Origin: Clostridia bacterium
GTDB taxonomy: Bacteria > Bacillota > Clostridia > Oscillospirales > Acutalibacteraceae
Direction: 5' to 3'
Length of the DNA stretch: 54,258 nt
Assembly (NCBI GenBank): GCA_017521925.1
Contig: JAFXBG010000007.1
Span: 1-54,258 of the forward strand
Below, piece by piece: positions 36,974 through 40,670 of this stretch. The position numbers and the translations under genes were made by a program. The notes under the pieces are model-generated. The model made no database searches and was not told the DNA's origin. It was given only the letters and a program-made list of their open reading frames with translations. Each line of letters begins with the position of its first letter. Positions within the stretch are counted from its first letter, which is position 1.

Positions 36974-37759
36974 ATGGGGTTAATTAAGTTAGAGTGTCCT
37001 TCTTGCGGTGCTCATTTGGAGTATTCACAAGATAGAGATGTGTTCTTTTGTGAGTATTGTGGTGCAAAGGTTATTAAAGATAAACAGTATATTGAGTTGT
37101 CAGGCAAGATTTCTATTGACGGAGTAGCTACTGAGGAGTCTTTGTTAGAGAGGGCATTCCTGTATTTGGAGGATGGAGATTTTTTAAATGCGGATAAATA
37201 TCTGGAAAGAACGCTGGACATAAACCCAAGGTGTGCCAAAGCATATATGGGAAAGCTGTTGGTTAAGTTCCGCCTTAAGAGTATAGATATGTTATCCCAT
37301 TGGTCAAAGCCGTTGAGCGACTATGATTTTTATAGAAAAGCAATACGGTTCGCCTCTGACGATGAAAAAGCAATATACGAATCCTATAATCAGCAGATTG
37401 TAGAAAGAATAATTCGTAAACAAGAAAATTGTAAGTTTGAAGTCGAGGATATAGAAAAACAGATAGAGCCCATAAAGGTATATTTGCGGGAAAATGCAGA
37501 ACAGTATAAACAAGATAGAGATAAAAAGGGTAGGTTGACAATTTTGCTGGCAGTTTCCTTTATACCGATATTAGTTATTATATTGACTATGGTAGCCATG
37601 GGTAAGCTGGCTCTTGCTTTTTTAGCGATACCCTTTATTGCTGTATCAGCTTTTCTGTTGGTTAAGAATATTTCTATAGATGAAAGAATCAAGGAATATC
37701 GTGATTTAGAAAATGAACTTGCTGAACTTGAGCAAGAAAAAGAAGAAGTAACTGCGTAG
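36974..37759 (+). CDS. Zinc-ribbon, TPR-like, two-helix membrane protein
   Basis: The product is 261 residues. It has an N-terminal zinc ribbon (LECPSCGAHLEYS and FFCEYCGAKV), a helical TPR-like segment (about 55-110: ERAFLYLEDGDFLNADKYLERTL), a charged helical stretch, two adjacent membrane helices (about 189-230) and a C-terminal coiled coil ending LEQEKEE. Similar zinc-ribbon/TPR proteins are widespread in Clostridia with unknown role. The ATG follows GAGGAG. A terminator follows the gene. Confidence 0.78.
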   Translation: MGLIKLECPSCGAHLEYSQDRDVFFCEYCGAKVIKDKQYIELSGKISIDGVATEESLLERAFLYLEDGDFLNADKYLERTLDINPRCAKAYMGKLLVKFRLKSIDMLSHWSKPLSDYDFYRKAIRFASDDEKAIYESYNQQIVERIIRKQENCKFEVEDIEKQIEPIKVYLRENAEQYKQDRDKKGRLTILLAVSFIPILVIILTMVAMGKLALAFLAIPFIAVSAFLLVKNISIDERIKEYRDLENELAELEQEKEEVTA

Positions 37760-37801: not shown

Positions 37802-37837
37802 ACACTCCTCACAGCTTTGTGGGGAGTGTTGCTTTTT
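37802..37837 (+). terminator. Rho-independent terminator
   Basis: A 12-bp stem (37802-37813 with 37818-37829, one wobble) has a GCTT loop and then TGCTTTTT. The next promoter's -35 box overlaps its end. Confidence 0.88.
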
Positions 37838-37857
37838 GCAGTATTTTGTTGTATAAT
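37829..37857 (+). promoter_or_regulatory. Promoter of the small hydrophobic peptide gene
   Basis: TTGCTT (37829-37834) and TATAAT (37852-37857) have a 17-base spacer. The 13-base palindrome GTACA-TAT-TGTAC at 37866-37878 begins right at the predicted transcript start. Confidence 0.6.
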
Positions 37858-37882
37858 GATTTGCGGTACATATTGTACTAAG

Positions 37883-37941
37883 GAGCTACCATAACGGTAG
37901 GCGGTTAGCCCTCATTACAGAGGGTGCTTACCCTCTTGTAA
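37883..37941 (+). promoter_or_regulatory. Structured 5' leader of the peptide mRNA
   Basis: The leader holds the hairpin CTACC-ATAAC-GGTAG (37886-37900) and an 11-bp stem (37915-37925 with 37930-37941) just before the ribosome binding site. GGCGGTTA (37900-37907) can pair with TAACCGCC at the stop codon (38027-38034). GAGCTACC and GGTTAGCC recur inverted at 38072-38094. Such long-range pairing is typical of type I toxin mRNAs. Confidence 0.5.
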
Positions 37942-37957
37942 TAAAGGGGGTGTTGCT

Positions 37958-38029
37958 ATGGAGTATTTAGTTATTGCCTTCTTAATTATAGTTGCAATTA
38001 CAAGTTTATTTTCAAGCATAAAAAAGTAA
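37958..38029 (+). CDS. 23-residue hydrophobic peptide, putative type I toxin
   Basis: The peptide MEYLVIAFLIIVAITSLFSS plus IKK is one membrane helix with a basic end, the shape of Fst, TxpA or holin-like type I toxins. AAAGGGGGTG at 37944-37953 is a strong ribosome binding site. The stop codon lies inside the stem of the shared terminator. The facing minus-strand promoter at 38105-38133 would make a short antisense RNA ending at the same terminator. I infer a membrane-active toxin held in check by RNA. Without the context the peptide alone would be ambiguous. Confidence 0.7.
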   Translation: MEYLVIAFLIIVAITSLFSSIKK

Positions 38030-38058
38030 CCGCCCTCGCCAAAGCACGGTTACTTTTT
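38021..38058. terminator. Bidirectional terminator shared by toxin and antisense RNAs
   Basis: A perfect 12-bp stem AAAAAGTAACCG/CGGTTACTTTTT (38021-38032 with 38047-38058) provides a T run on either strand. Confidence 0.88.
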
Positions 38059-38098
38059 AACTAAGTGTATTGGCTAACCGTCTATCGGTAGCTCTTTC
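38021..38098 (-). ncRNA. Putative antitoxin RNA
   Basis: A transcript of about 78 bases is predicted from the promoter at 38133-38105 to the shared terminator. It opens with a hairpin made from GCTACCG and CGGTTAGC, the same motif as the toxin mRNA leader, and overlaps the 3' end of the toxin mRNA over 38021-38058. It has no ORF of note. Confidence 0.55.
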
Positions 38099-38104
38099 AT
38101 TTAT

Positions 38105-38133
38105 ATTATATGCAAAATGTGCGGTGTTGTCAA
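38105..38133 (-). promoter_or_regulatory. Consensus sigma-A promoter for the antisense RNA
   Basis: On the minus strand, TTGACA (38133-38128) and TATAAT (38110-38105) are both consensus with a 17-base spacer, stronger than the toxin promoter. A hairpin GCGGACC-TTTG-GGTCTGC (38134-38151) lies just upstream and may end gatD. Confidence 0.85.
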
Positions 38134-40376: not shown

Positions 40377-40670
40377 TGCGTGACTGCAATAAATGATATG
40401 CGTTGAAGCGGGAGGTTGCGGCCATTTGGTCGGTTTTTCCGTGGAGTATGTCCGATTTCAAACCGGGCGAAAAAATTTTAAAGCACATTTTTAAGACAAA
40501 GGGGTTGCTATGTCCTAAGTGTGCCATTATGCTTTTCAAGACTTCTCCGGTTAACAAAATATGGTTAACCGTTTTTTAATGAAGGGTGATGAAACACCCG
40601 GATGTGTGTAAAAAAGGTTTAGTTTTGAAGTACGCCCGCCAACTAACAAAATTTTAAGGAGGCGACTTTT
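40377..40670 (+). promoter_or_regulatory. Long structured leader of the S10 operon
   Basis: This ORF-free leader includes GCGTTGAAGCGGGAGGTTG followed by a small hairpin (CGGCC-ATTT-GGTCG), a complete intrinsic terminator at 40548-40577, and a second hairpin GGGTG-ATGAAA-CACCC (40584-40599). The arrangement suggests transcription attenuation, perhaps by a ribosomal protein; the effector is unknown. Confidence 0.55.
40548..40577 (+). terminator. Intrinsic terminator inside the rpsJ leader (candidate attenuator)
   Basis: Stem CGGTTAAC/GTTAACCG (40548-40555 with 40564-40571) is followed directly by six Ts, 93 bases before the rpsJ start and about 180 after the promoter. Confidence 0.8.

Follow-up and report, generated by a model that had tools for sequence, protein, structure and literature searches.

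A probable type I toxin-antitoxin module with like leaders on both predicted RNAs, from a family widespread in Clostridia

Contig JAFXBG010000007.1 of a Clostridia bacterium of the family Acutalibacteraceae (GenBank assembly GCA_017521925.1), of which positions 1 to 54,258 of the forward strand were analysed (54,258 nucleotides (nt); hereafter the window), contains at 37829-38133 a locus that, judging from its sequence, is very probably a type I toxin-antitoxin module belonging to a family widespread in Clostridia and some of their relatives. A preliminary description of this DNA had proposed such a module, and we verified its sequence elements and coordinates against the window. The type I interpretation is supported by selection on sister open reading frames (ORFs), facing promoter-like sites, a covarying terminator, pairing of the Shine-Dalgarno sequence (SD) and sister peptides that match the Pfam family Hol_Tox. 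The anatomy of the locus, its recurrence, frame selection in sister loci, the joint change of the leaders and the covariation of the terminator were all computed in this work. Its features, including the match to an RNA covariance model of the antisense half (R1) that was built from 25 antisense RNAs with the window among them, are as follows.

37852-37857, plus strand: TATAAT, the -10-like element of the predicted toxin promoter (transcription start near 37864, uncertain)
37883-37910, plus strand: toxin-RNA leader GAGCTACC-ATAACGGTAGGC-GGTTAGCC (motif search and fold; counterpart in relatives)
37900-37907, plus strand: GGCGGTTA, complement of the stop-codon motif (sequence pairing)
37929-37952, plus strand: predicted hairpin that pairs the SD, 37929-37937 with 37944-37952, 9 bp (predicted fold)
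37958-38029, plus strand: gene for a 23-residue membrane-helix peptide, the predicted toxin, MEYLVIAFLIIVAITSLFSSIKK (ORF translation)
38021-38058, both strands: bidirectional terminator with a perfect 12-bp stem, 38021-38032/38047-38058 (inverted repeat and predicted fold)
38027-38034, plus strand: stop-codon motif TAACCGCC, complementary to GGCGGTTA at 37900-37907
38019-38098, minus strand: predicted antisense (antitoxin) RNA of about 80 nt (R1 match and fold; ends inferred)
38072-38094, minus strand: antisense-RNA leader GAGCTACCGATAGACGGTTAGCC with the hairpin 38092-38086/38080-38073 (motif search, alignment and fold)
38105-38133, minus strand: antisense promoter TTGACA-17-TATAAT (promoter scan, 12/12)

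The peptide gene, whose SD is AAAGGGGG, was verified at its described position, and its product has a best 19-residue hydropathy of 2.48. The perfect 12-bp terminator was likewise recovered as an inverted repeat and in the fold; the toxin stop codon lies inside its stem, and the two predicted RNAs are fully complementary across that stretch. As its loop is 14 nt, a general terminator scan with a loop limit of 8 does not report it. The minus-strand promoter was found with a full score of 12/12. On the plus strand, the TATAAT was present as described, but the promoter scan found no -35 element with it, and a separate promoter scorer gives this region 9/12; the scan's total of two promoters is not above that of shuffled sequences (mean 1.9). 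This TATAAT lies 25 nt ahead of the toxin leader, and several relatives have the -10 element nearer to it. Two further inverted repeats join the ends of the locus, one of 19 nt (37892-37910/38072-38090, 84%) and one of 11 nt (37880-37890/38087-38097, 91%). The toxin leader can form alternative stems, either CTACC 37886-37890/GGTAG 37896-37900 or GAGCTACC/GGTTAGCC. That both predicted RNAs begin with the same motif was confirmed: a search of the 1.41-Mb assembly (72.6% complete) for the GAGCTACC-N-GGTTAGCC pair found exactly two occurrences, each of them at this locus, and none of the reversed-pattern control. An 11-bp hairpin placed ahead of the SD in the preliminary description did not hold up, as its arms are only 82% complementary and the fold prefers the 9-bp SD-pairing hairpin at 37929-37952.

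Sister ORFs of the predicted toxin gene are under purifying selection. Of the 262 loci parsed, 177 have a toxin-like short membrane ORF with an SD that ends at the shared terminator, the parser's criteria for such an ORF including the SD and a hydrophobic stretch; the 177 are the window, 84 loci from genomes and 92 found by pattern or BLAST. Among these sisters, pN/pS was 0.223 in frame compared with 1.36 and 3.0 in the shifted frames (323 pairs), and dN was below dS in 38 of 39 disjoint pairs; with the GY..G peptide group left out, the ratio was 0.40 in frame compared with 1.14 and 1.50 shifted (47 pairs from 34 loci). The conservation of the peptide frame in related loci that the preliminary description had required is seen in the sisters. 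The peptides themselves are diverse, with 169 distinct sequences falling into 46 clusters at the chosen threshold, the largest of 72 and 32 members, and all but one of them (168/169) carry a lysine or arginine within the last five residues. Pfam Hol_Tox, the family that the TxpA, BsrG and BsrE toxins of Bacillus subtilis presumably resemble, matched 7 of 60 diverse sister peptides at E 0.01 and, in a smaller scan, 3 of 10 above Pfam's own cut-off. PepG1 showed weak similarity to 4 of the 60 at E 0.01, and no Fst-named family was among the matches for the sets of 10 and 60 peptides.

These peptides might instead be conserved small membrane peptides with a signalling or regulatory function, each controlled by a regulatory antisense RNA. 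Such a reading would accommodate the weak NCBIfam similarity of 4 of the 60 sisters to the competence inhibitor ComI, as well as the putative status of the peptide's toxicity. It is made quite unlikely by the Hol_Tox and weak PepG1 similarities, the charged tails, the pairing of the SD, the antisense overlap, the patchy distribution and the remnants described below. The peptides of L124, L147 and L149 (L numbers denote loci, G numbers genomes) are weakly ComI-like, and two of these are also weakly PepG1-like.

In the R1 alignment 93.4% of cells are paired, and the terminator helix has eight pairs changed on both sides among the 25 sequences, a number reached in 0 of 500 shuffles. The SD is predicted to be paired with a mean of 0.86, and above 0.5 in 170 of 172 loci, compared with 0.68 and 141 of 172 in a shuffled-5'UTR control. 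Promoter-like sites scoring at least 9/12 face each other across the family (antisense 130/172, toxin 120/170), with mean scores of 8.41 for the antisense and 9.05 for the toxin side compared with 4.48 and 6.82 after shuffling. The U-turn motif YUNR is present in the antisense terminator loop of 156 of 172 loci, compared with 115 when the loops are shuffled. In the window, the predicted co-fold joins the two RNAs at the terminator and stop codon (-122.4 compared with -80.6 kcal/mol apart), with each leader folded on itself.

The likeness of the two leaders within a locus is a property of the family, and the leaders change together from locus to locus. We compared leaders using a blind region score with one locus per antisense-leader type (n = 45). 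The 5' arm of the antisense leader was more similar to the toxin leader region in the same locus (score 16.76) than to those in other loci (12.39; z 11.9, 0/20,000 permutations). The same held for the 3' arm (16.78 compared with 12.86; z 10.3, 0/20,000), whereas the promoter-flank control was much weaker (z 1.8, 910/20,000). When stricter criteria narrowed the set to 18 loci, the z values were 7.7 for the 5' arm, 5.8 for the 3' arm and 2.9 for the promoter flank. Since the own region outscored every other region in 12 of the 45 loci for the 5' arm and in 11 for the 3' arm, the signal is strong on average and not locus by locus. The antisense leader also appears to be an RNA element: among leaders carrying CGG(U/C), this element is paired in 123 of 125 unique leaders with many different outer stems, and the mean folding energy of the antisense leaders gives z -2.35 (45 loci).

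One account of this likeness is homogenisation only, in which gene conversion between the inverted repeats would keep the leaders alike without any function. The weakly raised promoter control would fit it, in the 45 loci as in the 18, as would the few loci in which, by eye, similarity extends into the promoters (L234, L245). Conversion of this kind is hard to square with toxin leaders that retain an insert (such as GGTAGGC) missing from the antisense leader, where seen, or with the promoter flank of the own locus being the best match in 1 of 45 loci compared with 12 and 11 for the leader arms, and we consider it unlikely.

Alternatively, the leaders could be DNA sites at which a regulator of the host or the element binds at about +1 to +25 of both promoters and so co-regulates toxin and antitoxin. 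In many inspected loci the shared segment does start shortly downstream of the -10 element, and copies in the same genome tend toward one leader type. The antisense leader, however, folds as an RNA hairpin with varying stems, although a palindromic DNA site could show paired changes too; a single genome (G200) holds differing leader types (L255 and L258 compared with L261 and L266); and Pfam indicated no regulator among the five neighbouring proteins scanned, one of which had no match. On balance, binding of this kind seems quite improbable.

Reciprocal pairing of the two leaders was also tried as the reason for their likeness and was not supported, the cognate energy being no better than the non-cognate one. 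In its par-like form, imperfect-palindrome leaders would pair mutually, the toxin 5' arm with the antisense 3' arm and the reverse, and this double contact would replace the DRa and DRb repeats of par. The co-change of leaders within loci would be expected under it, leader-leader complementarity is slightly above that of non-cognate combinations (z 3.0, 98/20,000; 45 loci), and contact at both regions is required in par according to the available part of PMC7472228. Cognate cross-pairing nevertheless averages -16.5 compared with -16.3 for non-cognate pairs (3008/10,000 permutations; 38 loci), cross-pairing beats self-pairing in only 16 of the 38 loci and equals it in 4, and the window co-fold keeps both leaders self-folded. 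Leaders of copies in the same genome are, moreover, alike (0.85 compared with 0.66 between genomes; 39 pairs, 17 genomes), which leaves little specificity to come from them, and a double contact is quite unlikely. In the same comparison, terminator loops scored 0.69 within and 0.60 between genomes, and peptides 0.68 and 0.39. Because the leaders are alike within a genome and the loops are nearly as diverse there as between genomes, specificity seems to lie in the terminator loop more than in the leader, which resembles a 5' element shared by the copies.

The preliminary description had also pointed to pairing between the 5' and 3' ends of the toxin messenger RNA, as in hok-like systems. The toxin RNA of hok features 5'-3' pairing, and its antisense RNA covers the 5' leader, whereas the antisense RNA here covers the 3' end. 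The complementarity of 37900-37907 to 38027-38034 holds, and 84 of 102 loci could form an 8-bp match of the GGCGGTTA type when GU pairs are allowed, the element being nearly invariant. The pairing is nevertheless not part of the full-length predicted fold, in which the terminator beats it; it appears solely in the fold predicted for an RNA whose 3' end has been cut back into the terminator. Nor is there clear covariation across 118 loci, with relatedness not removed: X1/n1 gave 103 paired compared with 102.2 shuffled, X2/n2 102 compared with 98.1 (14 of 2000 shuffles as high) and X3/n3 27 compared with 25.5. The hok-like part of the comparison is therefore less supported.

The preliminary description had suggested a covariance search for the leader motif across Clostridia. 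With R1, a model of the antisense half, 87 of the 393 class genomes gave matches (83 of the 381 that are of high quality); each has between 1 and 11, and tandem runs occur. The model matches the window at 38017-38099 (E 7e-14, the window's sequence being part of the model), and within the genus it matches 12 of the 30 genomes. Matches were also found in 36 of 398 genomes of the phylum, 28 of them beyond the class, a figure that contains chance or degraded matches because 7 of 14 phylum matches inspected by eye did not look like whole modules: three are remnant-like (L371, L373, L375) and four unconvincing or partial (L378, L379, L382, L383). The other seven look like whole modules with the mirrored leader (L372, L374, L376, L377, L380, L381, L384). 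Tandem arrays of three or four module copies in about 1.6 kb were seen in L072 (a Monoglobus plasmid), G363:C1:2362174-2363736 and G570:C1:290982-292415.

In pattern scans with the 19-nt minus leader alone and one genome per species, we obtained at least 119 stretches from genomes, and 19 from viral contigs; among the 80 genome matches listed, 36 are titled Lachnospiraceae, with Butyrivibrio (B. hungatei among them), Roseburia, Anaerovibrio and Megasphaera also present. For the 112 with at least 300 nt upstream among the genome matches listed, the plus leader was found strictly in 63, loosely in 22 and not at all in 27, and an SD with a short ORF is present in 87 of 111 unique upstream regions. 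Among the matches listed from all sources there were 145 hits in 141 loci, about a dozen of which came from plus-leader scans or BLAST; of the 134 with 300 nt upstream, 81 have a strict plus leader, 23 a loose one and 30 none, and 102 of 130 unique upstream regions carry an SD and a short ORF. Twelve of the 28 that do not were inspected and include antisense-only remnants, ORFs with unusual starts (L118, L184), a leader fused to the terminator in L087 and an insertion in L170. In L170 the inserted stretch breaks the toxin ORF, with a seemingly intact antisense half. Other antisense halves lack a complete toxin (L205, L103, L138, L176) and may be antitoxin-only remnants or decoys; the one in L205 follows a complete module that has an antisense half of its own. 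L093, L207, L211 and L212 form a subgroup with another terminator sequence (stop region GAACACT) and the same antisense leader. A paired-motif scan of viral contigs returned 65 stretches, four of which have facing motifs with a short ORF between them, while BLAST against plasmids and phages gave partial matches alone (5 and 4 records), five of which resembled true loci on inspection.

Closer to the window, the exact motif occurs in 3 of 200 genomes of the family, its own included; the others hold L003 and L005. In the closest relative found with the same neighbours, G225 (GatD 85% identical), gatD comes immediately after a hexapeptide-repeat gene (L347). This site is without the window's 1.2-kb stretch, which holds a 261-residue protein gene and the module, and a search of the G225 genome with R1 gave no match; the module is thus patchy at this site, having been either gained in the window or lost in G225. 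As gene and module are both absent in L347, the two may have arrived or left together. The 261-residue protein (36974-37759) carries two CxxC pairs in its N-terminal part and two hydrophobic stretches toward the C-terminus, and it matches no Pfam family. Further along the window, an S10-Clostridia ribosomal protein leader (Rfam RF03136) lies at 40394-40473, ahead of ribosomal protein genes.

The module was compared with several known systems. The par locus of pAD1 (RNA I/RNA II, Fst) and the Fst/Ldr group, as portrayed in the accessible part of PMC7472228, have in common with it convergent promoters, a shared bidirectional terminator and a short membrane peptide, together with an SD-sequestering hairpin and a 5' upstream helix, the former of which is predicted here. 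The par/fst likeness drawn in the preliminary description stands for the promoters (the window's plus-strand one being weak), the terminator and the SD hairpin but not for two other features. Complementary repeats of the DRa/DRb type were not detected in the 45 loci, where complementarity to the SD/start region gave z 1.1 for the antisense spacer and z 0.5 for the antisense leader, the leaders being alike instead, and the window peptide, which has no proline, cannot carry the PXXXG motif of Fst. That the leaders are the same and not complementary, which had been offered as the distinguishing trait, therefore stands, with leader likeness found family-wide. TxpA/RatA, BsrG/SR4 and BsrE/SR5 of B. 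subtilis resemble the module in their 3'-3' overlap and in an SD that is paired in the toxin RNA, with an overlap given as 114-120 nt in the portion of PMC7430163 consulted compared with about 40 nt here, where the antisense RNA is also shorter (about 80 nt). Unlike that Hol_Tox (PF16935) group, the module has a shared leader, and its own peptide is not Hol_Tox by profile although the 7 sisters are. With SprG/SprF (PepG1) of Staphylococcus aureus, compared by peptide only, the likeness of the four sisters is weak, and the scores seen lay below the curated cut-off. CD2517.1-RCd8 and similar loci of C. difficile are alike as convergent type I modules within Clostridia (excerpts of PMC6563280 and PMC7699646); compared by description, their peptides of 34-59 residues have no reported homology to other systems and no shared-leader feature is described in these excerpts. 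As far as sequence can tell, the module works like a type I system and misses the two defining par/Fst features tested and, for the window peptide, the Hol_Tox profile.

From this anatomy we infer transcription of both strands, toxicity of the peptide, processing by RNase III and a role for the leader. The plus RNA would encode a short membrane-spanning peptide, the putative toxin, and its SD is predicted to be paired from the moment the RNA is made. A minus RNA of about 80 nt would arise from the strong facing promoter, fully complementary to the last 40 or so nt of the toxin RNA with its stop codon and terminator, and would begin to pair at the terminator loop, where U-turn motifs are common. 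The resulting duplex would lead to double-strand cleavage, presumably by RNase III, to a block of translation, or to both; SD pairing, terminator overlap and loop U-turns fit decay or block through a 3'-3' duplex like that of the B. subtilis modules, as set out in part of PMC7430163. Were the module lost, or the antisense RNA to decay first, the peptide would be made. The 5' hairpin leader common to both RNAs may be kept alike by selection or homogenisation, and such a matched 5'-end element could hold the two RNAs at a constant ratio by governing how both are made or how long they last, which we regard as the most likely role of the leader.

Several points weigh against this interpretation. 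No parsed toxin was obtained from 85 of the 262 loci (5 skipped as incomplete), and the SD and hydrophobicity, being criteria by which the parser selects, are not independent evidence. None of the equal-length ORFs in the set shares more than 50% nucleotide identity with the window ORF, so the frame-selection test covers the sister ORFs alone, and the window peptide matches no family in Pfam or NCBIfam. Some weak R1 matches resemble chance. In the leader helix, no pair is changed on both sides in R1's 25-sequence alignment (A1).

The module had no match in Rfam, with the whole window searched at the gathering score; with E up to 1 there was one chance-level match far below the cut-off. Among the papers listed by searches of the open-access literature, no description of this family was seen. 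According to the available part of a 2019 review (PMC6563280), C. difficile was the only member of the Clostridia with type I modules validated by experiment, and PMC11318856, in its available part, deals with other toxin types. The fast divergence of both peptides and RNAs makes type I modules difficult to detect. The family described here is defined by its RNA frame and not by its peptide, such that a single covariance model reaches 87 of the 393 class genomes, and with 169 peptides in 46 clusters R1 offers a route to many toxin candidates. We tentatively entertain, at somewhat less than even confidence, the broader possibility of a large, undescribed superfamily of type I modules in Clostridia, in which unrelated toxins are swapped within a constant RNA frame with co-evolving leaders, and in which the leader would represent a new control principle coupling the fate of both RNAs. 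The co-changing leaders in any case raise the question of why a toxin messenger RNA and its antitoxin should share one 5' end.
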